From contig JAFLBE010000023.1 in the NCBI GenBank assembly GCA_017303995.1, forward strand, positions 1 to 64,000: a stretch of 64,000 nucleotides of DNA, read 5' to 3'. Source of the stretch: Bacteroidota bacterium (lineage in GTDB: Bacteria; Bacteroidota; JABWAT01). Positions 4,885 through 52,144 of this stretch are shown here, piece by piece (the stretch's first letter is position 1; every line of letters starts with the position of its first letter). The notes under the pieces are model-generated. The model was given only the letters and a program-made list of their open reading frames with translations, searched no databases and was not told where the DNA came from. Made by a program: the position numbers and the translations under genes.

Positions 4885-5798
4885 ACCAGATCTCCTTCTG
4901 ATGGGTCAAAGCCTTTTTCGGTTACAGTCTGGATAAAAATATCCTTCAGAGAGGGTTCAACACGTTCAATCCGCTGAATATCTAAATGTTCATTCAGGAA
5001 GGTGATTATCGGGCGGATGGGATTTCCGTTAAGTTTAAGTTCTACATGTTTGGGATGCCGGTCTGCAATTTCAACACCGGTAAGCTGGTCAAAAACAGAA
5101 ATGTCGCCATCAAATTCAATTACAACCGAGTCACGGCCGAATTGTTTTTTAATATCTCTCAGATTACCGTTTAAAACGCCGATTCCTTTATTTACAAGCA
5201 CAATTTCATCACAGATTTTTTCAACCTGTTCCATGCGGTGGGTTGAAAATAGAATAATTTTATTTTTCTTTTTCAGGTCTAAAATGAGATTGTTCACCAA
5301 TTCTGCATTGATCGGGTCAAGACCTGATAGGGGTTCATCAAGAATAATGAGGTCAGGATCGTGAAGGATGGTTGTGAGAATCTGCACTTTTTGCTGCATG
5401 CCTTTTGAAAGGGCTTCAATTTTATGATTCGCCCAATCGGTCAAACCAAATTCTTCAAGCAGCTCCATTCCGCGTTTTTTCGCATCGGGGGCCTTCATGT
5501 TTTTGAGTTCGCCCAAAAACTGAATTCCTTCAATTACCTTCATTCTTTTGTAAAGACCACGTTCTTCCGGCAGGTAACCCATCACTTCCTGAGTTTTAAT
5601 TCCGACGGGATTGCCATCAAAAACAATTGATCCGGAATCGGGGAAAGTGATATTGGCAATCATCCGTATCGTTGATGTTTTCCCGGCTCCGTTCGGACCC
5701 AGCAACCCCAGAATTTTTCCACGTGAAACTGAGAATGATAACTCACTCACAGCCGTGAAACTGCCATATTTTTTGGTAACAGAAGTCAGAACCAGCAT
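4881..5798 (-). CDS. ABC transporter ATP-binding protein (NatA-like)
   Basis: This 305-residue ATPase drives the permease encoded by the overlapping downstream gene. Visible motifs are Walker A GPNGAGKT at residues 34-41, the signature LSKGMQQKV, Walker B LIILDEPLSGLDP and the switch His in FSTHRMEQ. The C-terminal extension resembles the DUF4162 domain found on NatA-type subunits. A GAGAGG site precedes the ATG. The GT9 gene ends 14 bases upstream, so GT9-GT9-ATPase-permease reads as an operon. Confidence 0.93.
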   Translation of the reverse strand: MLVLTSVTKKYGSFTAVSELSFSVSRGKILGLLGPNGAGKTSTIRMIANITFPDSGSIVFDGNPVGIKTQEVMGYLPEERGLYKRMKVIEGIQFLGELKNMKAPDAKKRGMELLEEFGLTDWANHKIEALSKGMQQKVQILTTILHDPDLIILDEPLSGLDPINAELVNNLILDLKKKNKIILFSTHRMEQVEKICDEIVLVNKGIGVLNGNLRDIKKQFGRDSVVIEFDGDISVFDQLTGVEIADRHPKHVELKLNGNPIRPIITFLNEHLDIQRIERVEPSLKDIFIQTVTEKGFDPSEGDLV

Positions 5799-5812
5799 AA
5801 ACTGTTTTCCTC

Positions 5813-6967
5813 TCAGGCCGGTTGTGCCTGAATTTCCTTGATTCGTGCCTGAACAGCTTCGGTAATTGAATTCAGGTCAATTCCTGAAATACATTCGGTG
5901 TCATACGGGCATTCAGCTTTCCAGCAGGGAGAGCAGGCCAGATCTTTCGGGAAGATTTTAATTCCACGGTCAAAAAGATCAACTTCTTCCCAACAAGTGG
6001 GGCCAAACCAGGCGATAACATATTTCTTTAGTGCGATTCCGGCAAAGAGTCCCATTGCATCGCCAGAAATAACAATATCAGCGATATCAATTGTTAGAAT
6101 CCCGTTTCTGAGACCCAGATTGGTTGGTGTTGAGATTACTTTGTAGCCTAAAATATCAGCAATTCTTGCATTTCTTTCGGCATCTTCGGGCCCGCCAAAA
6201 AGCACAACTTTTACTTTTGGGATTTTACTGAGTTTATCAATTAATTTAAGGTACTGATCTTCTGATAACTTTTTATTTGGAAATAGGAGATTGCTCCCAG
6301 TATTGATTCCAACAACAATATCACCGTCTTTAATTCCAAACTCAGAACGCATTCTGGCAACTTTTTTCTTTTCTTCACTTGAAAAAAGAAGAATCATTTC
6401 ATCTCGTTTGTAGTCGAGCCTGAGCATCTCATGAATAATGTCTGGCATAGTGCGTTTGTTGGTTTTAAACTTCAACTCATCACTCAGCCCCAGCTGATAT
6501 AAATAGGTGGCTTCAGGGTTCAGCGGAATGAGTGCCCCGTTCCGGTTCAGTCCAAAACCAAGTTTTTCTTTTGACTTCATTTTCATGGCAATGGAGGCGG
6601 CACGGTCAGATTTATCAATGTTGATGAGAACATCAAATTCCTGAGCAAGCAGAAATAATCTTTCATCATAATCATAAAGTGACAGATGATCGATGTACGG
6701 GTTATTGTTTAAAAGAGCACGGTTTTTGGTTAAGGTAAGCCAGGTAATCTGGGATTCAGGAAATTTTCTTTTCAGGGCAGGAAGAAAACTGGTATTGACC
6801 AGAATATCACCCATTGACTCAAAATTGATAATGAGAATCCGGGTTCCGAGCGGAACTGGATCCTGACAGGTTCTGCATTCCTTGTAAGGTTCACAAGGTT
6901 TAAACCCGTTGAACAATTTACAGTCTGGCACCGGTGTGCCGTAAATTTCAGGAAATTTCTGTGACAT
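5813..6967 (-). CDS. glycosyltransferase family 9 protein with cysteine-rich N-terminus
   Basis: This 384-residue protein has the GT9 (heptosyltransferase-like) pattern: an N-terminal Rossmann segment ILIINFESMGDILVNTSFLP, then the C-terminal nucleotide-sugar half with GINTGSNLLFPNKKL, VVLFGGPEDAERNARI and SGDAMGLFAGIALKKYVIAWFG. GT9 enzymes add heptose or similar sugars to LPS core or other glycans at the inner membrane. Before the catalytic domain is a cluster of four Cys (residues about 17-37). A second cluster, CSPCWKAECPYDTEC, lies near the C-terminus. Together they could bind a metal. The donor sugar cannot be read from sequence. An AAAGG site lies upstream of the ATG. Confidence 0.85.
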   Translation of the reverse strand: MSQKFPEIYGTPVPDCKLFNGFKPCEPYKECRTCQDPVPLGTRILIINFESMGDILVNTSFLPALKRKFPESQITWLTLTKNRALLNNNPYIDHLSLYDYDERLFLLAQEFDVLINIDKSDRAASIAMKMKSKEKLGFGLNRNGALIPLNPEATYLYQLGLSDELKFKTNKRTMPDIIHEMLRLDYKRDEMILLFSSEEKKKVARMRSEFGIKDGDIVVGINTGSNLLFPNKKLSEDQYLKLIDKLSKIPKVKVVLFGGPEDAERNARIADILGYKVISTPTNLGLRNGILTIDIADIVISGDAMGLFAGIALKKYVIAWFGPTCWEEVDLFDRGIKIFPKDLACSPCWKAECPYDTECISGIDLNSITEAVQARIKEIQAQPA

Positions 6968-38848: not shown

Positions 38849-39355
38849 TCAGGTAAAAAACCAACCGTTTAACCAAATGATAACCAGATATCTGAAAATC
38901 CGGAGTCCAAATACAATCAGAATAAAGGTTTGGATTCTGATGTTGAAATAGCCGGCAGCCAGGGTAACCGGGTCACCGATAACCGGAAGAACAGAAAGCA
39001 CTAATGTCCACGTTCCATACCGGTCAAACCAGGGCTCAGATTTGTTTACAGCAGAACGAACGGCCTCTGAATGAGTTGTGAGGGTTCTCGCCCATTTTCC
39101 TATCAGATAATTAGCCGAAACCCCAAGACAATTACCAACAGATGCAGCAAAAAATCCGGCCCAAAGCGCCTGACCTGAATAGATCCAAAGCTGTAGCATC
39201 AACTCAGAAGAAAAGGGCAACATCGTCGCACTTAAAAAACTTCCGGTTAACAATCCGATCCAGCCGTAATTTGCTATTAATTCGGTAACCCAGGTCGGAT
39301 TAATGAGAATTAAAGGAAAAATCGCAATCAGAGCCATAACTTTTTCTGTAAACAT
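38849..39355 (-). CDS. YqaA/VTT-domain (DedA-like) membrane protein
   Basis: This 168-residue integral membrane protein has the DedA/VTT pattern: a re-entrant segment GSFLSATMLPFSSELMLQL with the acidic residue after the Pro, then AASVGNCLGVSANYLIGKWA, and the amphipathic stretch VLPVIGDPVTLAAGYFNI. It is closest to the short YqaA subgroup. DedA-family proteins act as lipid scramblases or flippases (for example undecaprenyl phosphate or phosphatidylethanolamine), but the substrate here is not known. It is divergent from the tricorn protease gene with 126 bases between. Confidence 0.87.
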   Translation of the reverse strand: MFTEKVMALIAIFPLILINPTWVTELIANYGWIGLLTGSFLSATMLPFSSELMLQLWIYSGQALWAGFFAASVGNCLGVSANYLIGKWARTLTTHSEAVRSAVNKSEPWFDRYGTWTLVLSVLPVIGDPVTLAAGYFNIRIQTFILIVFGLRIFRYLVIIWLNGWFFT

Positions 39356-39481
39356 CCGTAGAAAAAAAGTTTAATTCAATGCGTAAAGGTTTTTATGACA
39401 TCTTTTTGCATTTGTAAATAAAATTCGCAATCACACCAAAATAAGTTAACATAATCGTCAAAACTCAACCATGAGGATTTC

Positions 39482-42400
39482 ATGCTTCGTTATTTAGCTG
39501 TTTTTATATTGGCATTTCCTGTTTTGGCATCTGCCCAGGAAGAAACCCGCCTGCTTAGGTTTCCTGCAATTCACGGTAATCAGGTCGTTTTTACCTATGC
39601 CGGTGATCTCTATACGGTTTCATCGGAAGGTGGAACGGCCCGTAAACTCACTACTGATTCCGGTGTCGAACTGTTTGCCCGTTTTTCACCAGACGGAAAG
39701 CTGATTGCTTTTACCGGACAGTATGACGGCAACACTGAAGTTTATGTGATTCCTGCTGAAGGCGGAATTCCAAAAAGAATTACCATCACCGCAACCCTGG
39801 ATCGGGATGATCTGGGTGACCGCATGGGTCCCAATAACATCGTGATGGACTGGAAGTCAGACAACAAGTCTATTCTGTTCCGTTCACGGATGAGTGAACC
39901 GAATGATTTTAAAGGTCAACTTTTTCTTGCCAACCTTTCAGGTGATGTTGTTGAGCAACTCCCCTTACCCCGTGGCGGATTTGGTACCTTTTCTCCCGAT
40001 AATCAAAAGCTCGCCTATAACCGCATTTTCAGAGAATTCAGAACCTGGAAACGGTATCGGGGCGGCATGGCCGATGATGTCTGGATCTATGACTTTAAAA
40101 CCAAAGAAACTGTTAATATTACGGATAACCCCTCCCAGGATATTTTCCCGATGTGGAGAGGTGAAAAAATCTATTATATCTCTGACCGTGATGAAAACAA
40201 ACGGTACAATCTGTTTGCTTACGATGTAAAAACGAAAGAAACCCGCAAACTCACCAATTTCAAAGATTTCGATATCAAATTTCCTTCAGCCGGAAACCAA
40301 TCGGTTATTTTCGAAAACGGTGGATATCTCTATACAGTTGATTTTGCAACGGAATCGCTGAAAAAGCTAACCGTTAAAATTCAGGATGATCTTGATATTC
40401 AGCGGAATGGTATTGTTGATGTCAGCAAAAACGTAACAAATTTTGAAATTTCCCCGGATGGAAACCGTGCGCTTTTTGGTGCCCGTGGCGATATTTTCAC
40501 CGTCCCTGCAAAATATGGATCAACCCGTAATCTGACTCAAACTTCCGGCGTTCATGAGCGCAATTCAAAATGGTCACCTGACGGAAAGTGGATTGCATAT
40601 GTGTCTGATGCAACCGGCGAAGATGAAATCTATACGGTTCCGCAGGATGGAAAAGGTGCAGCTGTTCAGCTCACGAAGAACTCTGACAATTACAAATATG
40701 AACTTCGCTGGTCACCTGACAGTAAGAAAATTCTCTGGTCAGACAGAATGCAGCGTCTGCGGTTTTTTGATGTTGAATCGAAATCCATAAAAGAAGTTGC
40801 CAGTTCACCAGTTTGGGAAATAACTGAATTTGACTGGTCACCTGACAGTAAATGGATTGCCTTCGGTCAGCAGGAACAAACGAGCATGAGCCGTGTTTAC
40901 CTCTATTCGCTTGCCTCAGATCAGTCAACCCCGGTTACTGATGGCTGGTATTCTGCCGGTGCCCCTGTTTTCAGTGCAGATGGTAAATATCTGTACTTTA
41001 CTTCAAGCCGGGATTTTAATCCGATTTATTCTGAAACGGAATGGAATCATGCCTATCAGGATATGAGCAAAGTGTATTTGCTAACGCTCTCTGCCTCAAC
41101 TGATTCACCGTTTAAACCCAAAAGTGATGAAGTTGCAATTGCCCCTGCCGTGAAGCCGGAACCCAAAAAGGATGAACCGAAAAAAGACGCAAAAACTGTT
41201 GAAGTTATGGTTGACCTGGATGGCATTATGGATCGGGTTCTTGCTCTTCCGATTCAGGCTTCGAATTACCGCAATATACAAAGTGCCGGTGAAAAGATTT
41301 ATTACATCCGTCAGGGAAGTAAAGATGCAAAACCTGTTTTATTGATGTTTGATCTTGCCGGACAAAAAGAAACTCAGATTGCTGAAGTTGGCGGATTTGA
41401 AATTTCTGCCGACAAATCCAAAATTCTGGTTGGAAATAATGGCAATTATTACCTGGCTGCTCTTCCTTCCGGAAAAACAGAGTTTACCGAACCGCTTGAT
41501 CTTTCAAAAATGAAAGTTAATCTGGATCGCCGGGCAGAATGGAAACAGATTTTTGACGAAAACTGGCGTCAGATGCGTGATTTTCTCTTTGCACCCAATA
41601 TGCACGGTGTTGACTGGAAGGGCGTTCACGATAAATATGCTCAACTGCTTCCATATGTAAACAACAGACTCGATCTCACTTATATTCTGGGTGAAATGGT
41701 TGCTGAACTGAATATCGGACATGCTTATGTGGGTGGCGGTGACGCTCCAAAACCTAACCGTGTAAAAACCGGACAGTTAGGCGCTGAACTAAAACGTGAC
41801 GACTCTGGTTTCTATAAAATTGTAAGAGTTCTGGATGGTGAAAACTGGAATAAAACCCTTCGTTCACCACTCACTGAAATTGGTGTTAACGTGAAGGCTG
41901 GAGATTTTATTCTTGCTGTGAACGGAAAATCAACCAAAGACATGACCAATATTTATGAGTCTCTGATCGGCACTGTCGGAAGCCAGGTGAACCTGACCGT
42001 TAACAGTAAACCCGACCTCGCAGGCAGGCGTGAAGTTGTTGTGATTCCGATTGCTGACGAACAGGATCTGAATTATTACGCCATGGTTCAGACCAATATT
42101 GAAAAAGTTAACAAAGCCACAAATGGTAAAGTTGGCTATTTACACATTCCTGATATGGGTCCGGCCGGATTAAATGAATTCGTGAAGCATTTCTATCCGC
42201 AGCTCAGCAAAAAAGCTTTGATTATTGATGTTCGTGGAAATGGTGGCGGAAATGTGTCACCCATGCTGATTGAACGGCTGAGAAGAGAAATTGCCATGAT
42301 CAATGTCGCCAGAAACAGTATACCGGTTACAAACCCGGAAGAAATGATCTGGGGACCTAAGGTGGCGTTGTGTGACGAATTCTCTGCTTCCGATGGTGAT

Positions 42401-42727
42401 ATTTTTACCTACCGGTTCAAACATTACAAATTGGGTAAAGTAATTGGGAAAAGAACCTGGGGTGGTGTTGTGGGAATCAGGGGAACCTTACCCTTTACAG
42501 ATGGTGGCGTTTTGAATCGTCCTGAGTTTTCCCGTTATGATGTAGAAGGAAAAGAGTGGATCATGGAAGGCTACGGTGTTGACCCGGATATTATTGTCGA
42601 CAATGACCCTGCAAAGGAATTTGCCGGAATTGATGAACAGCTGAACAAAGCGATTGAAGTTATTCTTGAAGATCTGAAAACTCAGGAAAAGACCATTCCG
42701 CCTCTTCCTAAATACCCCGTGAAGTAA
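39482..42727 (+). CDS. tricorn protease homologue (S41 family, secreted)
   Basis: This 1081-residue protease has a signal peptide (cleavage after VLASAQ). Beta-propeller repeats of the PD40/TolB type follow, with many WSPDGKWIA, FSPDGKLIAF and WSPDSKKI motifs. Next come a tricorn core with GEMVAELNIGHAYVGGG (catalytic His), a PDZ domain (GVNVKAGDFILAVNGKS) and the S41 catalytic region with Ser970 in CDEFSASDGDIF. Tricorn enzymes degrade peptides cut by other proteases. In this clade they are exported, which points to a periplasmic role. An AEEP/KP-rich linker separates the propellers. A GAGGATTTC site precedes the ATG. Confidence 0.94.
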   Translation: MLRYLAVFILAFPVLASAQEETRLLRFPAIHGNQVVFTYAGDLYTVSSEGGTARKLTTDSGVELFARFSPDGKLIAFTGQYDGNTEVYVIPAEGGIPKRITITATLDRDDLGDRMGPNNIVMDWKSDNKSILFRSRMSEPNDFKGQLFLANLSGDVVEQLPLPRGGFGTFSPDNQKLAYNRIFREFRTWKRYRGGMADDVWIYDFKTKETVNITDNPSQDIFPMWRGEKIYYISDRDENKRYNLFAYDVKTKETRKLTNFKDFDIKFPSAGNQSVIFENGGYLYTVDFATESLKKLTVKIQDDLDIQRNGIVDVSKNVTNFEISPDGNRALFGARGDIFTVPAKYGSTRNLTQTSGVHERNSKWSPDGKWIAYVSDATGEDEIYTVPQDGKGAAVQLTKNSDNYKYELRWSPDSKKILWSDRMQRLRFFDVESKSIKEVASSPVWEITEFDWSPDSKWIAFGQQEQTSMSRVYLYSLASDQSTPVTDGWYSAGAPVFSADGKYLYFTSSRDFNPIYSETEWNHAYQDMSKVYLLTLSASTDSPFKPKSDEVAIAPAVKPEPKKDEPKKDAKTVEVMVDLDGIMDRVLALPIQASNYRNIQSAGEKIYYIRQGSKDAKPVLLMFDLAGQKETQIAEVGGFEISADKSKILVGNNGNYYLAALPSGKTEFTEPLDLSKMKVNLDRRAEWKQIFDENWRQMRDFLFAPNMHGVDWKGVHDKYAQLLPYVNNRLDLTYILGEMVAELNIGHAYVGGGDAPKPNRVKTGQLGAELKRDDSGFYKIVRVLDGENWNKTLRSPLTEIGVNVKAGDFILAVNGKSTKDMTNIYESLIGTVGSQVNLTVNSKPDLAGRREVVVIPIADEQDLNYYAMVQTNIEKVNKATNGKVGYLHIPDMGPAGLNEFVKHFYPQLSKKALIIDVRGNGGGNVSPMLIERLRREIAMINVARNSIPVTNPEEMIWGPKVALCDEFSASDGDIFTYRFKHYKLGKVIGKRTWGGVVGIRGTLPFTDGGVLNRPEFSRYDVEGKEWIMEGYGVDPDIIVDNDPAKEFAGIDEQLNKAIEVILEDLKTQEKTIPPLPKYPVK

Positions 42728-42733
42728 CGAAAT

Positions 42734-42768
42734 AAAAAAAGTCCGGCAATTGCCGGACTTTTTTGTTT
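42734..42768. terminator. terminator after the tricorn gene
   Basis: AAAAAAAGTCCGGCAA pairs with TTGCCGGACTTTTTT, giving a perfect stem with no unpaired loop bases beyond the turn. It lies 10 bases after the stop and is symmetric, so it can also stop the convergent RNase G transcript. Confidence 0.9.
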
Positions 42769-42784
42769 AATTCAAAAACTTATA

Positions 42785-42830
42785 ACTAAATCATGGGCAC
42801 TTCGGCTCCGCTCAGTGACCGTGATTTAGT
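42785..42830. repeat. ACTTCGACTCCGCTCAGTG-family hairpin between convergent genes
   Basis: ACTAAATCA at the left pairs with TGATTTAGT at the right. GGGCACT and AGTGACC pair with one mismatch inside, and TCGGCTCCGCTC forms the loop. This copy lies between the tricorn and RNase G genes, next to a true terminator, as at 17115. Confidence 0.72.
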
Positions 42831-42839
42831 AACTGTTCC

Positions 42840-44516
42840 TCACTCCGCCGGCTGATCATCACCAGATTCAGTCATAAATTCACCGGTCACTTCAATTCCT
42901 CTTGAAATCGAAAAAGCTTTAAAGTCATTCAGGTGAATGGTTGGATCAGGAGCAATAACAATTTTCATCCGGTAACGGAACATCCATTTGTAACGGGTTG
43001 AAAAGATAAAGCCTGCATTCAAAATGCCCGACATGGTTGGGTGAACTCTGATTTCGAGACTGCGTTCGCGGGTTGCACTGAGAAACCGCTGAATCCATCG
43101 TTCGATCGAGGTGATGGTGTTTGATTTCGCTTGTACCAATCCGGTACCGGCACACATCGGGCAGGCCTCAGAAATGGTTGCCAGTACAGACGGACGAATC
43201 CGCTGCCGGGTGATCTGAATTAAACCAAATTCAGTCATCGGAACGAGATTTGATTTTGCCCGGTCCTTTTTAAATTCTTTTTTCAGTTCGTCGTAGATTT
43301 TCTTTTTATTCTTCTCATCCTGAAGATCAATGAAATCCACAACAATAATTCCGCCGATATCCCGTAGTCTCAGCTGATGACAAAGTTCACGGGCAGCTTC
43401 AAGATTGGTTTTCAGGGAATTCATTTCCTGTTCTTTTTTCGCTGCATACCGGCCTGAGTTCACATCAATAACAACCATCGCTTCAGTTTGTTCGATGATG
43501 ATGTAACCACCAGATTTCAGCCAGACTTTTCTTGAGAATGCACTTTCAACATCCTTCTCAATTCCAACTGCATCAAAAATAGGCTCCCGACCTTTGTAAT
43601 AGTAAACACATTCTTCAAGATGAGGTGCTGCCCAGTTTACAAAAGTCTTGATTTGTTTGTAGGTTTTTTTATCGTCGATGACAATCCGGTCAACCTGATC
43701 GTTGAGCAAATCACGCATCACCGATGAAACCATGGTGGCATCTTTGTAAACCAATTGGGGAGCCGTAGCTTCCTTAAGCGCATCCTGGATGATTTTCCAT
43801 TTATCAAGCAGAATCATAATGTCTTTTTTGATGATTTCTTCATCAACATTTTCTGCATTGGTGCGGATGATAGCACCCAGATTAGCTGTGAGCAGGTCTG
43901 AAACGATCTTGCGAAGACGACGTTTTTCTTTGTAATTATAGATTTTCTTTGAGACGCCGATAGTTTTCGAAAATGGCATGAGAACCACAAACCGACCTGC
44001 AAGGGTAATATCGGTGGTAATTCTTGATCCTTTTTTAGCGATTGGTTCTTTTACAATCTGAACTAAAATTTCCTGATCACGTTCCAGGTTTGGCACAAAA
44101 TCGGGATTATCTCTCTGCCGACCTTCCTTTGATTTTTCTGGTCGGCTTGCCGGGGCATTTTCATCACCTTCTTCTGAATCTGAGGTGTCATAATCACCAT
44201 CTTCATCACCGATCAGGGCAGAAAATTCATCTGTGTTATTGGCGATGTCGGAGAAGTGAAGGAAGCCATCTATTGGCTGACCTATGTTAACGAAAGCAGC
44301 ACGGATTCCCGGCATGACTTTCTGAACTTTACCCAAATATATATCACCAACGGTTCTAACTTTATCGGGGGTTTCTACATAAAGCTCAGCCATCTGATCA
44401 TCTTCAGTGATGGCAATGCGCATTTCATTTTCATTAACGTTAATGAAAATCTCTTTTTTCACTTTAAATCGGTTTGGGTTTTGATTGGGATAGGGTTTGT
44501 TTTGATTCTGATACAC
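42840..44516 (-). CDS. rng: ribonuclease G/E
   Basis: This 558-residue endoribonuclease acts in rRNA maturation and mRNA turnover. It has an S1 domain (GDIYLGKVQKVMPGIRAAFV), the RNase E/G core with catalytic Asp residues in MVVIDVNSGRY and GGIIVVDFIDLQDE, and the zinc-link CPMCAGTG that joins dimers. It lacks the long C-terminal degradosome scaffold of RNase E, so RNase G is the better name. The S1 domain is interrupted by an acidic insertion (about residues 100-140: DEDGDYDTSDSEEGDENAPA). The first 18 residues are Asn/Pro/Gln-rich. A long non-coding region precedes the start. Confidence 0.94.
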   Translation of the reverse strand: MYQNQNKPYPNQNPNRFKVKKEIFINVNENEMRIAITEDDQMAELYVETPDKVRTVGDIYLGKVQKVMPGIRAAFVNIGQPIDGFLHFSDIANNTDEFSALIGDEDGDYDTSDSEEGDENAPASRPEKSKEGRQRDNPDFVPNLERDQEILVQIVKEPIAKKGSRITTDITLAGRFVVLMPFSKTIGVSKKIYNYKEKRRLRKIVSDLLTANLGAIIRTNAENVDEEIIKKDIMILLDKWKIIQDALKEATAPQLVYKDATMVSSVMRDLLNDQVDRIVIDDKKTYKQIKTFVNWAAPHLEECVYYYKGREPIFDAVGIEKDVESAFSRKVWLKSGGYIIIEQTEAMVVIDVNSGRYAAKKEQEMNSLKTNLEAARELCHQLRLRDIGGIIVVDFIDLQDEKNKKKIYDELKKEFKKDRAKSNLVPMTEFGLIQITRQRIRPSVLATISEACPMCAGTGLVQAKSNTITSIERWIQRFLSATRERSLEIRVHPTMSGILNAGFIFSTRYKWMFRYRMKIVIAPDPTIHLNDFKAFSISRGIEVTGEFMTESGDDQPAE

Positions 44517-45187
44517 GTGCTGAGCTCCTGCTAACGTTCGGGTCGGAAGACCGATCCCGGTTTAATGGTGTCATGATCCGGCAATGCCGGTTGGTTCGCG
44601 GCCGTTTGGAGAACTGGTTTCCGGAAATAAATTTCAGGATACCGGAAGGCTCAAAACATCTGGCGGTTCTGGCAGGATCACAATGCCGGATCACAGGCAG
44701 AAACCAGGCGAAATTCCGTCAAAAGATGAAAATCATCTTCATCAGGAGAGGAGTTGGCAGCAGGCAGGAGGGCAGATATGTTGTTTTGATGGTTGTATGC
44801 AAAATCAGTGCGAAATAAATAGTCATGGGCACCCGATTTTTAAAATCCGGATGAAAAATTCAAAAGTATCAAAGCATATCGCTGTTTAACATAACCTGTC
44901 AATCTGTTGCAGCCAGGGTTGAAAGCCCACAAGTGCAGGGGAACCAAACCGGCCATGGCATAGTGACCGTTTGTTGGGAAATTGATCTCATGTGTTCAGA
45001 CTTGAATCGGATTTGTCTGGAATTTTTGGATTCTGGCAGATAACTGCCTGATGGTTTACTGGAAGTCCGGGCCCGATGTCAATTTTCCCCTGATTGTTAC
45101 CTTCATAAAAAATCTGTATAAATATACGAAAGTTTTACTCAGAATGGCAAACTGAACCAGTTTTGGCGGGGGAAGGAAGTTGTCATA
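44517..45187. other. long non-coding region upstream of the RNase G gene
   Basis: No credible gene is seen in these 671 bases. The open frames here overlap antisense and lack family features. On the minus strand this could include the leader of the RNase G mRNA. It contains small inverted repeats, such as CCGGCA-A-TGCCGG near 44578 and TTCCGG...CCGGAA near 44618-44646. RNase E is known to control its own mRNA through a structured leader in enterobacteria, so a similar device is possible; that is inference. I could not match the region to RNase P RNA, tmRNA, 6S RNA or SRP RNA. Confidence 0.55.
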
Positions 45188-45228
45188 AAACAAAAAAGTC
45201 CGCCTTTCGGGGCGGACTTTTTTGTTTG
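45188..45228. terminator. terminator next to the porin remnant
   Basis: CAAAAAAGTCCGCC and GGCGGACTTTTTTG pair around TTTCGG or a shorter loop. It lies 25 bases beyond the stop of the porin fragment on the minus strand, as if it had served the intact porin gene. Confidence 0.88.
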
Positions 45229-45252
45229 GGTAAAACCAGGTGTCAAAGGAGG

Positions 45253-46083
45253 TTAGAACCCAACAACTGCTTCTAACATAATTCCACTAAATTCGCCACC
45301 ATCAAGAATGTTATTAGTAGGAAGATCAGAGTAAGTTTGTTGAACGTATTCAAGTTTAGCCATAATGGATTTTGTCATGAACCAACCACCTGAAACTGCA
45401 ATTCGATCTACGGTAATATCTTTTGTATATACCATTTTTGGAGTTGAAACAGGACGACCGGAAACTGTGTTGTATCTTCCGCCAACCCAGAAGTTTTCTG
45501 TATCACCAAAACGATAAATTACATCTGCAGCCATTTGGGTCCAGGTACGTTCTTCAAGTTGGCGAGCCCGTGATAGAGCATCTCTAACTGCTGTGTTAGA
45601 ACCAGGCGTTACAACCTGAGCAGATTCTTCGGATTTTGAAGTACCTTTTGCAACTTCGTAATTTCCAAAAATTTCCAATCCATGGAATTTAACAAACGGG
45701 TTGATTACCCAAGCTGTTAATTTACTGTCAAGATTTGGGTTAATCCGGCCGGAGGAAAATTGTTTGTCTGAAGAAGCAGAGGCATAAGCATTTGCATTTG
45801 GAGTTTGCGTGAGGATATTTTCTGCTTCCATAACATAATAATAATGAGAGCCACCGCGATCACCATCATAAAGTGTAGCGTTTGCAGATTTCGCGGTCGT
45901 ATAAAAAGATCCTGTAAGACGGACGCGAAGGTCATCCGCTACATTTGAGTCATAGCCACCCTTAAGAATAATGGAGGGAGATTTAAATTTAGGGGTTGTA
46001 ACATCACCCTTGATTTCACCGTTTGTGATACCTACTAAGCCTAAGAAACCTTCATTTCCCAGTCGTGCAGGGTTGAAGTTCCT
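45253..46083 (-). pseudogene. outer-membrane porin-like gene, 3' part only
   Basis: The minus strand from 46083 is open for about 276 codons and ends in SGIMLEAVVGF, the aromatic terminus of an outer-membrane barrel. Inside are barrel-like strands such as DDLRVRLTGSFYTTAKS, GLEIFGNYEVAKG, WVGGRYNTVSG and SIMAKLEYVQQTYSDLP. No start codon or signal peptide exists in this frame; upstream it meets a TAA at 46084-46086. An ATG at 45831 would begin in mid-barrel and is not credible. The missing 5' part has been replaced by the start of a YceI-like gene in another frame. It may be a porin of the kind common in Bacteroidota. Confidence 0.8.
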
Positions 46084-46184
46084 TTAATCATCATGAGGCT
46101 GGTTGGTTTTGCAACGAAATCCAGTTTGGATTCTACTGCGCTTCCGCTGCCGATAACGAATAAGAGTAAGAGGTTCAGTAACAT
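46041..46184 (-). pseudogene. YceI-like gene, 5' part only
   Basis: From ATG 46184, preceded by an excellent AAAGGAGA site, the minus strand encodes 47 residues: a signal peptide (MLLNLLLLFVIGSGSA), then ESKLDFVAKPTSLMMIKGTS and TLHDWEMKVS, ending at a TAG at 46041-46043. The GTSTLHDWEM segment is typical of the first strands of YceI-family lipocalin-like proteins. The rest of a YceI protein (about 150 residues) is absent. The reading overlaps the porin fragment by about 40 bases in another frame, so the promoter and start of one gene now precede the body of another. Confidence 0.72.
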
Positions 46185-46429
46185 GGGTGTCTCCTTTTTT
46201 TCCTTTGACAGTACAAAGATGAGGCAAAAATTGGTGCCCGTGGGTTAAGTGGTCATTAGATATATGTTGCAATATGTAATATGATAAAATATTCTTTTGT
46301 CTTATTATGGCTATTTTAGTCCATTGTCTAATCTGGCTCTAAGAAAGGGTAAAAATTGACTAAATGGATCTGTTATATTTGAGTAGACAAAAAGTTAAGC
46401 GAAACCTGAAACAGAAAAAGGAGGCTTGA

Positions 46430-46717
46430 TTGCAGCGGAAGAAATATAACAGAGAGTATAAATTGGAGACAGTAAAACTCAGTTATGAACGAGGAAGTAT
46501 AACCGAGTTGGCACAAGAACTAGGGTTGCGACCAGAATTGATATACCGTTGGCGGAGCGAATTTGAAGCGACAAGTGAAAACAGTTTTCCAGGGAATGGA
46601 AGGCGAACGGAACCAGAGGATGAACTGAGCCGGCTTCGAAAGGAAAACCAGGAGCTGAGACTGGAACGGGATATCCTAAAAAAAGCAGTGGTGATCTTCA
46701 GCAAACCTACACAGTAA
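46430..46717 (+). CDS. IS3-family transposase OrfA
   Basis: This 95-residue protein has an N-terminal helix-turn-helix (KKYNREYKLETVKLSYERGS, then ITELAQELGLRPELIYRWRS) and a leucine-zipper-like end, LSRLRKENQELRLERDILKK. It binds the inverted repeats and helps the transposase assemble. The start is a TTG with a strong AAAAGGAGG site. Its last codons contain the A-rich slippery run used to reach OrfB. Confidence 0.93.
   Translation: MQRKKYNREYKLETVKLSYERGSITELAQELGLRPELIYRWRSEFEATSENSFPGNGRRTEPEDELSRLRKENQELRLERDILKKAVVIFSKPTQ
46679..46685 (+). promoter_or_regulatory. probable -1 ribosomal frameshift site of the IS3 element
   Basis: The heptamer A-AAA-AAG lies within CTAAAAAAAGC near the end of OrfA. 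Slipping back one base leads from ..ILKK into SSGDLQQTYTVKYKFIEDHR, which continues in frame into OrfB. This is the standard IS3 arrangement for making the OrfAB fusion transposase. Confidence 0.8.
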
Positions 46718-46761
46718 AGTACAAATTTATCGAAGATCACCGGAAAACGTACTGTGTTGGG

Positions 46762-47583
46762 ATGCTGTGCCGGATACTCCGGGTTAACCGAAGCGGATAT
46801 TACCGGTGGAAAGCGGGCCTGAAGGTAAGAAAACAACGCTGGCCAGAAATAGATGAGAAAGTAAAAGTGATATGGAGCGGAAGTAAAAGCAGGTATGGTG
46901 CCCCAAAAATCCGTCAGGAGTTACTTCTATTAGGGATTCCGGTAAGCCGTCAACGTGTTCAGCGGCGGATGAAAGCACTAGAAATCCGAAGCAAATACAG
47001 AAAGAAATATCGTCCGGTGACCACCACTAGCAACCATAAGAAATCAATCAGCCCCAATCTGCTTAACCGGGAATTTGAATCAAACCGGTTAGGGGAAAAA
47101 TGGGTCAGCGATATCACCTATCTGAAATGCCAGACCCGATGGGTTTATTTAACCACGGTTATGGATCTGGCTGATCATCAGATTGTAGGTTGGTCGTTAT
47201 CCAGAGATATGCGGGATGACACTACGACCCTATTAGCCTTCAGTAATGCAGTTGAACGCCGGAACCCTTTGGATCAAATGATTTTCCACTCAGATCGGGG
47301 AAGTCAGTATGCCTCAGATGATTTCCGGAAATTACTGGAAAGTAAAAATGTCAGGCAAAGTATGAGCAGAAAAGGAAACTGCTGGGATAATGCAGTTGCT
47401 GAGGCGTTCTTCAGAATTCTGAAAGCGGAATTGCCGGAAAATTATACCACACTTTCGTTTGAAAATCTGAAATCATTACTGTTTGATTTTATTGAAATAT
47501 GGTACAACAGAAAAAGAATTCATTCAACGCTCGGCTATTTTACTCCAGCACAAATGGAATTGATTTTAAATAGAGTCGCTTAA
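46762..47583 (+). CDS. IS3-family transposase OrfB (DDE catalytic domain)
   Basis: This catalytic part of the transposase has 273 residues from the first ATG, but it is open upstream to the frameshift site and probably made mainly as an OrfAB fusion. It opens with the HTH_21-like MLCRILRVNRSGYYRWKAGL, and the integrase core has Asp in KWVSDITYLKC, Asp in IFHSDRGSQYASD and Glu in WDNAVAEAFFRILKAEL. The end, RIHSTLGYFTPAQME, is typical of the IS3 family. No damage is seen. Confidence 0.95.
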   Translation: MLCRILRVNRSGYYRWKAGLKVRKQRWPEIDEKVKVIWSGSKSRYGAPKIRQELLLLGIPVSRQRVQRRMKALEIRSKYRKKYRPVTTTSNHKKSISPNLLNREFESNRLGEKWVSDITYLKCQTRWVYLTTVMDLADHQIVGWSLSRDMRDDTTTLLAFSNAVERRNPLDQMIFHSDRGSQYASDDFRKLLESKNVRQSMSRKGNCWDNAVAEAFFRILKAELPENYTTLSFENLKSLLFDFIEIWYNRKRIHSTLGYFTPAQMELILNRVA

Positions 47584-47630
47584 CTTTTTGTCTACTTTTA
47601 TGTTGCATATCCAAAAAAGATCCCTAATAA

Positions 47631-47643
47631 CCCCCCCCCCCCC
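47631..47643. repeat. 13-base poly-C tract upstream of ubiD
   Basis: Thirteen consecutive C residues lie 203 bases before the ubiD start and 35 bases beyond the IS3 end. Such runs slip easily during replication. The tract is not inside a reading frame, so if it matters it would be through promoter spacing. No promoter can be assigned firmly. Confidence 0.8.
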
Positions 47644-47845
47644 AATGCGGATAGGGGAGTATTTTGTCTCTAATTAAATATTAATCTATGTGAACTGGGA
47701 ATATTTCATATCCGAAATTGGGGTTTAATTGTACAATCCAAGTGGTTGTTTTTTCTGACCTTTCCCGAACTTGAATTTTAGTTTTCCTGTTGGAATCAGT
47801 TGCTTGTATTTCCGTATTTTTATTTCACTATTCAGGATGTTAACT

Positions 47846-49741
47846 ATGCCGTTTCAAGATCTTCGTGATTATTTGTCTGCTTTGAAAACAAGAAATGAAC
47901 TTGTTGAAATTAATCAGCCGTTCAGCCCGGACCTGGAAATTACAGAAATTGCAGACCGTAGTTTTAAAAAATCGGAAACATCGCCAACCTTACTTTTTAA
48001 AAACATGCAGGGGCATTCGATTCCGGTGGCAATCAATCTGTTTGGAACTGAGAAGCGAACTGCCTTTGCACTTGGTGTAGATAAGCTGGATGATATTGCA
48101 GACCGGATCAGAACGTTTACCAGCATGGTTCCGCCAAAAACACTCGGTGATAAAATTAAAAAGGCACTTCAGTTTGCAGGAATCAGAAAATTTGTTCCCC
48201 GGTTGGTAAAAAAAGCACCGGTTCACAACATCGTTTTAACCGGTGATCAGGTTGATCTCTCAATACTACCGGTTCTTAACTGCTGGCCTGATGATGGCGG
48301 AAAATTTATTACACTGACAGCTGTGGTTTCGAAAGACCCCGATACCAACTCAAGAAACATCGGGATGTACCGGGTTCAGGTGTTTGATAAAAACACAGCC
48401 GGACTACACTGGCAGCGGCACAAAGGCGGTGCCGCTCATCACGAAAAATTTAAAAAGACTGGTGGCCGGATGGAAGTTGCTGTTGTCCTGGGTGGTGATC
48501 CGGCAACTATTTACTCTGCTTCTGCACCCTTGCCACCAAATATTGATGAATGGTTTTTTTCAGGATTTCTTCGTGGGAAATCAGTAGAAATTGTAAAGTG
48601 TAAAACAGTCGATCTGGAAGTTCCTGCTCATGCCGAAATTGTTCTTGAAGGCTATGTTGATCTGAATGAACCGCTTCGGGTTGAAGGTCCGTTTGGCGAT
48701 CACACTGGTTTTTATTCCCTCGCTGATTTATACCCGGCATTTCATGTTACCGCAATAACCATGAGAAAGGATGCCATTTATCCCACCACAATTGTAGGAA
48801 TTCCGCCCGTTGAAGATGTTTGGTTAGGAAAAATAACAGAAAGAGCATTTCTGCCGCTGATGCAGGTAGTCCTTCCTGAAGTTGTAGATTATCACCTTCC
48901 ACCTGAAGGTGTCTTTCATAATCTTGTTTTTATATCCGCAAAAAAATCGTATCCTGGGCACGGCTGGAAAATCCTTCACGGATCACTGGGGCTCGGGCTC
49001 ATGATGCTTTCCAAAGTTATTGTGGTTTTGGATGAAGACGCCGAAGTTGAAAATATTCCCGAATGCTGGCGGCGGTTAATGAAGAACGCAGATTTTCATC
49101 TGGATGTCGCAGAAACGAGAGGCCCCATTGATGCACTTGATCATGCATCGCAATTTTTTACCTATGCTGGAAAAATTGCTATTGATGCTTCAACAAAATG
49201 GAATGGTGAAGGCCGTGTTACCGGAAAACCGATTTCAATTCCGGCAGAAGTAATTAAAGGGGGTCTTGAAAAAGTTAAGAATCAGCTTCTTGGCTTCCCT
49301 GAAATCAAATCATGGTCAGTTCCCTACTATAAAGATGGCGATGAAGGTGTTTTTTCACCCTTATTTGTGAATATTGCCAAGTCTGAACCCGGTCAGGGAA
49401 GAACGCTTGCCGCCAAATTGCTTGAACTTGATCTTGGTGGATGGAATAAATTGGTTATTGTGGTTGATGACGTTGATGATGTAAATAACCCTTTTGAATG
49501 CTGGTGGATTTCACTGAATCATCTTGATCCAATCCGGGATGTCATCCGGTTTTCAATTCCATCCAGTGAAAAGGGATATCAGGTTCCGGGATATTCAGCA
49601 AGTGAAACCCGAATGGGATGGGATTCAACTTCAAAACGAAAAGACGAGCAATTTGCCCGTGAATGGCCATGGAAGGTCATTATGCCTGCTGAAGTAAAAT
49701 CCAAAATTGATAAAATCTGGCCTCAACTTGGCATCAGATAA
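47846..49741 (+). CDS. UbiD-family decarboxylase (menaquinone-type, long form)
   Basis: This protein of about 631 residues belongs to the UbiD family of prenylated-FMN-dependent decarboxylases. It starts MPFQDLRDYLSALKTRNELV, with a CAGGAT site before ATG 47846; an in-frame ATG at 47771 adds unrelated residues. Typical elements are LNCWPDDGGKFITLTAVVSK, HKGGAAHH, VEGPFGDHTGFYSLADLYPA and the C-terminal GKAIPIDA-like segment GKIAIDASTKW. The C-terminal extension and length fit the branch often annotated as menaquinone biosynthesis decarboxylase. No mqn or men gene is nearby, so the pathway is inferred. It probably needs a UbiX flavin prenyltransferase, not seen here. Confidence 0.88.
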   Translation: MPFQDLRDYLSALKTRNELVEINQPFSPDLEITEIADRSFKKSETSPTLLFKNMQGHSIPVAINLFGTEKRTAFALGVDKLDDIADRIRTFTSMVPPKTLGDKIKKALQFAGIRKFVPRLVKKAPVHNIVLTGDQVDLSILPVLNCWPDDGGKFITLTAVVSKDPDTNSRNIGMYRVQVFDKNTAGLHWQRHKGGAAHHEKFKKTGGRMEVAVVLGGDPATIYSASAPLPPNIDEWFFSGFLRGKSVEIVKCKTVDLEVPAHAEIVLEGYVDLNEPLRVEGPFGDHTGFYSLADLYPAFHVTAITMRKDAIYPTTIVGIPPVEDVWLGKITERAFLPLMQVVLPEVVDYHLPPEGVFHNLVFISAKKSYPGHGWKILHGSLGLGLMMLSKVIVVLDEDAEVENIPECWRRLMKNADFHLDVAETRGPIDALDHASQFFTYAGKIAIDASTKWNGEGRVTGKPISIPAEVIKGGLEKVKNQLLGFPEIKSWSVPYYKDGDEGVFSPLFVNIAKSEPGQGRTLAAKLLELDLGGWNKLVIVVDDVDDVNNPFECWWISLNHLDPIRDVIRFSIPSSEKGYQVPGYSASETRMGWDSTSKRKDEQFAREWPWKVIMPAEVKSKIDKIWPQLGIR

Positions 49742-52098: not shown

Positions 52099-52144
52099 GA
52101 TGTCATCCCGGATAAAGTCCGGGATGACATCTTTTTTTTTTTTT
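52099..52144 (+). terminator. strong terminator after the phosphatase gene
   Basis: GATGTCATCCCGGA (52099-52112) and TCCGGGATGACATC (52118-52131) form a perfect 14-bp stem with loop TAAAG, followed by 13 T residues. The stem is also a repeat-family sequence seen in eroded form at 25051-25186, so it is another repeat serving as a terminator. Confidence 0.92.

Follow-up and report, generated by a model that had tools for sequence, protein, structure and literature searches.

A YceI-type gene start joined to the end of a porin-like gene in a Bacteroidota genome: a very probable deletion across two neighbouring envelope genes

How does the beginning of one envelope gene come to run into the end of another in a different reading frame? 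The question is raised by a minus-strand locus in a 64,000-nucleotide stretch of DNA (the window), which belongs to contig 44 of a draft genome of 4.31 Mb (G000; 127 contigs, 98.3% complete) whose nearest named kin are Bacteroidota MAGs. The locus joins the start of a YceI-type gene to the tail of a porin-like gene close to an IS3 element. Members of the YceI family (PF04264) are lipocalin-like periplasmic isoprenoid-binding proteins. The comparison loci include two from the same genus, L026 (MAG.504; genome G001) and L027 (isolate BAC1; genome G002), and L048 (genome G003) from another genus of the same family.

The yceI 5' remnant (46051..46184, minus strand) keeps a signal-peptide-like N-terminus and the first residues that follow it. 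The minus-strand open reading frame from the ATG at 46184, preceded by an AAAGGAG-type ribosome site, reads MLLNLLLLFVIGSGSAVESKLDFVAKPTSLMMIKGTSTLHDWEMKVS and includes the motif GTSTLHDWEM; past the join it is out of frame and soon ends at a stop codon (46041-46043), giving 47 codons in all. This 47-residue stretch matches the L027 YceI protein with an E value of 9e-20, at 83% identity over residues 1-48 of the latter. The L027 homologue scores 39.1 bits against PF04264 (cut-off 23.7), whereas what is left in the window, codons 1 to 45 of about 188, ends ahead of most of the domain, and this stump alone has no Pfam match.

The porin 3' remnant (45253..46055, minus strand), the end of an outer-membrane barrel gene, is read in another frame, which stays open from position 46083 until the stop codon (45253-45255). 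It matches intact relatives with E values of 1e-95 to 1e-116 and is 74%, 72% and 66% identical to the full-length homologues of G001, G002 and G003, respectively. Chance resemblance is excluded by the E values of the two remnants, and the YceI-type start followed by a porin-like tail in a different frame, as the initial annotation had it, is borne out by both reading frames and their homologues. The two readings overlap by 40 nt (46083-46044), in agreement with the first estimate, and the join maps inside this overlap, at 46051-46055, where the break had been placed. The share of the porin that remains had been put too high at three-quarters, as about 248 of 451-462 codons (54-55%) are kept. 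Directly 3' of the porin stop, a hairpin followed by a T-run resembles an intrinsic terminator (45188..45227, minus strand; z -5.97), and its counterpart in L027 is nearly identical. Along much of the intergenic DNA at 44800-45250 the identity to L027 is 97-99%, higher than in the adjoining coding DNA.

What the locus looked like before the join can be read from relatives. L026, L027 and L048 each carry an intact yceI followed by an intact porin (462 aa in L026, 451 aa in L027) between the same two conserved neighbours as in the window, the divergent ubiD (47771..49741, plus strand) past the yceI end and the RNase E/G gene (42840..44516, minus strand) past the porin end. These relatives are free of the IS3 element, and they hold the DNA between the two gene ends that had been predicted to be missing from the window. 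By blastn, window 39267-46050 corresponds to L027 12756-6013 and window 46051-46355 to L027 4899-4594, so that 1113 bp present in L027 (4900-6012) are absent at a single sharp break, 46050/46051. Against L026, 1139 bp are missing, and 5 bp (46051-46055, ATGAA) belong to both alignments.

The arrangement in the window is also unique within the phylum sample. The porin family has 62 matches in 58 of 198 phylum genomes, of which 61 begin no later than position 9 of the model and run to its end; the G000 copy alone is truncated, covering only 204-429. A single conserved fused gene, which would have spoken against a deletion, is thus not what the relatives carry. The absent DNA was not found elsewhere in the draft. 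With the L027 YceI protein as query, only the stump was found in G000 and the rest of the gene was not; four other YceI-domain matches there are paralogues beyond the reach of this query. The 5' half of the L027 porin had no match in G000, while the control genomes G001, G003 and G048 were all matched in the same run, and no second copy of the porin tail occurs in the own genome. The missing DNA is therefore absent from the draft assembly, not moved within it.

Flanks that are colinear on either side of a single sharp breakpoint, the intact gene pairs of relatives and the absence of the missing DNA from the rest of the assembly together support the reading that a deletion of about 1.1 kb fused two neighbouring envelope genes and left a deletion pseudogene, which on these sequence comparisons is very probable and agrees with the fusion by deletion first proposed. 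Leftwards from ubiD, the ancestor would have carried an intact yceI and at once an intact porin. One deletion would then have run from a quarter of the way into yceI, across the gap, to 45% of the way into the porin, bringing the two stumps together out of frame; the IS3 element would have entered the upstream intergenic region in a separate event. The functions of both yceI and the porin would have been lost, since the product is a 47-residue peptide and no exportable porin can be made. The deletion is probably recent, as the porin stump shows no decay: all 35 tail columns that are invariant among 16 homologues are kept, and in the tail tree it sits on a branch of no great length (0.12; L026 has 0.22).

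As to how the deletion came about, the sequence ATGAA at the junction (46051..46055, minus strand) is common to both parental ends when L026 is the comparator, while L027 gives 0 bp in common; both values are read from proxies for the parental sequence, L026 being the better one at the porin end, given that L027 carries a different porin allele. The deletion may have arisen at this short microhomology (~5 bp) by replication slippage or illegitimate recombination, and we lean slightly towards slippage there as the cause.

The different allele in L027 bears on a second route, in which the deletion arose during a porin allele exchange, as a failed homologous replacement, instead of by spontaneous slippage. 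Between the window and L027, the RNase E/G protein is 99.8% identical and the peptidase beyond it 96.9%, with UbiD at 87.0% and LptE at 85.7% on the other side. The porin tail of the window is 72.1% identical to L027, less than the 74.2% to L026. In an alignment with L027, whose porin lies at 5404-6756, the identity per 50 columns rises sharply from 36-78% before the porin stop codon to 90-100% after it, making the porin a divergent island, as an exchange would. The L027 porin groups with that of G003, from another genus, in the tail tree (support 100/97) and in the tree of the 5' halves (99/98); the L027 yceI beyond codon 45 is 83.9% identical to L026 and 58.6% to G003. The trees, however, mark L027 and not the window as the swapped copy, and the 5' edge of any exchange would fall in the deleted DNA, so a deletion born of an exchange in the window lineage is unlikely. 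The simplest reading of these trees and identities is that the L027 lineage probably acquired a porin like that of G003; an older pair of alleles or paralogues, one lost in each lineage, would be a less simple account. The porin locus seems to be readily exchanged and lost, and the change, swapping and loss of the porin fit a surface protein under selection by a putative agent.

An assembly artefact would place both genes intact in the real cell, with the draft having skipped about 1.1 kb within one locus. The assembly is indeed a draft of 127 contigs, but both sides of the join lie in the same syntenic locus, which also means that the join is not a chimera of organisms, and the missing halves are nowhere in an assembly that is 98.3% complete. 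In addition, the joined pieces have only about 5 bp in common, which is too short for an assembler overlap, and we consider such an error very improbable.

The IS3-family element (46383..47595, plus strand) lies between ubiD and the yceI remnant, its near end 198 bp from the yceI start codon, in keeping with the distance of about 200 bases noted at the outset. It has 20-bp perfect terminal inverted repeats (46383-46402 and 47576-47595) and encodes OrfA (HTH_Tnp_1; 46430..46717, plus strand) and OrfB (rve/DDE; 46687..47583, plus strand), the latter probably made by a -1 frameshift at an A7G site (46678-46685). The two frames jointly cover the NCBIfam IS3 model, and the element, present as a single copy in the assembly, looks intact, as the initial annotation stated. 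No target-site duplication was discerned when its flanks were read against the empty site of L027, the exact ends of this single copy not being fixable. Its presence in the same locus would suit a deletion made directly by the element, adjacent to one of its ends; adjacent deletions begin at the IS end, however, whereas the near end at 46383 is about 330 bp off the join and the DNA between is colinear with L027 up to 46355. An IS-adjacent deletion was rejected on this distance and is very unlikely, and the part in the event hinted at for the element gains no support from its position. With colinear sequence over the roughly 330 bp that separate it from the break, its insertion was probably an event separate from the deletion.

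A run of 13 C at window 47631-47643, between the element and ubiD, is absent from L026 and L027 and may reflect either a tract of variable length or a weak point of the assembly; together with a run of 13 T at 52132-52144 it makes up the long homopolymers listed by the homopolymer scan.

A working fusion, in which the ribosome shifts frame within the 40-nt overlap to make a chimeric exported barrel, could draw on the retained signal-peptide-like start, the strong ribosome site and the undamaged porin frame, but it was rejected and is extremely improbable, since the yceI reading holds a single XXXYYYZ heptamer (GGGAAAT), which does not sit in the right register, the product would lack about 45% of the predicted barrel, and none of the relatives among 198 phylum genomes carries the fusion, in line with the doubt cast on it from the start.

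If the deletion reading holds, what kind of genes were lost? The intact L027 porin matched no Pfam or NCBIfam model, and a sequence search of the PDB returned three weak matches (best E 0.023) with no porin among them. As the sequence scans gave no family, the identification as a porin rests on a fold search with a predicted structure of the intact L027 protein. The prediction, made from a 16-sequence alignment with moderate confidence (pLDDT 70.9, pTM 0.73), is a beta-barrel whose best solved matches are the porins OprP, OmpT, OprO, PorB and MOMP; the first ten fold matches have TM-scores of 0.42-0.67 and identities of 8-11%.

The link between the two genes extends far beyond the close relatives. 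A search with the porin tail as the sole query yielded 20 loci (L026-L045); in 17 of these, a gene matching a single YceI query sequence strongly lies immediately upstream in the same orientation. Adding 30 loci (L056-L085) from the 62 porin-family matches in the 198 genomes gave 50, and with a YceI profile a YceI gene was found close by in all 50, although 17 of them went into building the profile, which makes the result circular for these loci and their duplicates but leaves the rest unaffected. In 41 loci the YceI gene is directly upstream on the same strand, and in the remaining nine it is downstream or divergent, or the contig ends upstream; many have a second YceI-like gene just downstream. 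These loci are related rather than independent, with at least two duplicates (L058 of L026 and L059 of L027). YceI and the porin are an apparent two-gene unit. That the orientation changes while the linkage stays constant argues for, or at least hints at, a joint function.

The form of that function can be sketched tentatively. Ubiquinone-8 is reported to occupy the tunnel of most YceI structures in PMC9113575, where the function of bacterial lipocalins is called unclear. We infer, as a possible but doubtful model, a carrier-and-barrel function, in which the periplasmic lipocalin-like YceI protein would either deliver a hydrophobic ligand to an outer-membrane barrel of its own or receive one from it. 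The pair would form a dedicated Bacteroidota module, its surface-exposed barrel under changing pressure, for example from phages, swapped between lineages, as in L027, and now and then lost together with YceI in a single step, as in the window. No paper on a YceI-porin pair was found in the searched open-access literature; the main text of PMC9113575 contains neither 'porin' nor 'Bacteroid', and in PMC5429918 a YceI gene and a porin are merely listed together in one expression table. A second YceI neighbourhood in the own genome (L004, 1073-3346 on contig 50 of G000), with two tandem YceI genes, a DUF5777 membrane barrel and what may be a small cytochrome c, its Pfam score falling slightly short of the cut-off, is a parallel to the YceI-porin pairing.

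The event itself would be ordinary gene loss. Its value is that it points to a porin family that has no Pfam or NCBIfam name and has YceI beside it in every one of the 50 loci. YceI is widespread, and a constant outer-membrane partner would give experimenters a way in, using cultured species such as Cecembia (L028, L029).

Set beside known systems, the pair resembles BcnA-LcoA, where, according to PMC9113575, a YceI gene likewise sits in a conserved neighbourhood with an envelope partner; that partner, LcoA, is a membrane cytochrome b561, whereas the partner here is an outer-membrane barrel. The predicted L027 barrel is like the trimeric general and specific porins (OprP/OprO, PorB, OmpT, OmpF), with TM-scores of 0.54/0.59 to OprP, and differs from them in having only about 9% identity to OprP and no Pfam or NCBIfam family. 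As in other deletion-fusion pseudogenes, an internal deletion appears to have cut two adjacent genes short and brought their remains together in different frames, with a short stretch of homology where they meet. Nothing here would be different in kind, except that the genes look like a conserved pair, both members of which would have gone in one event.
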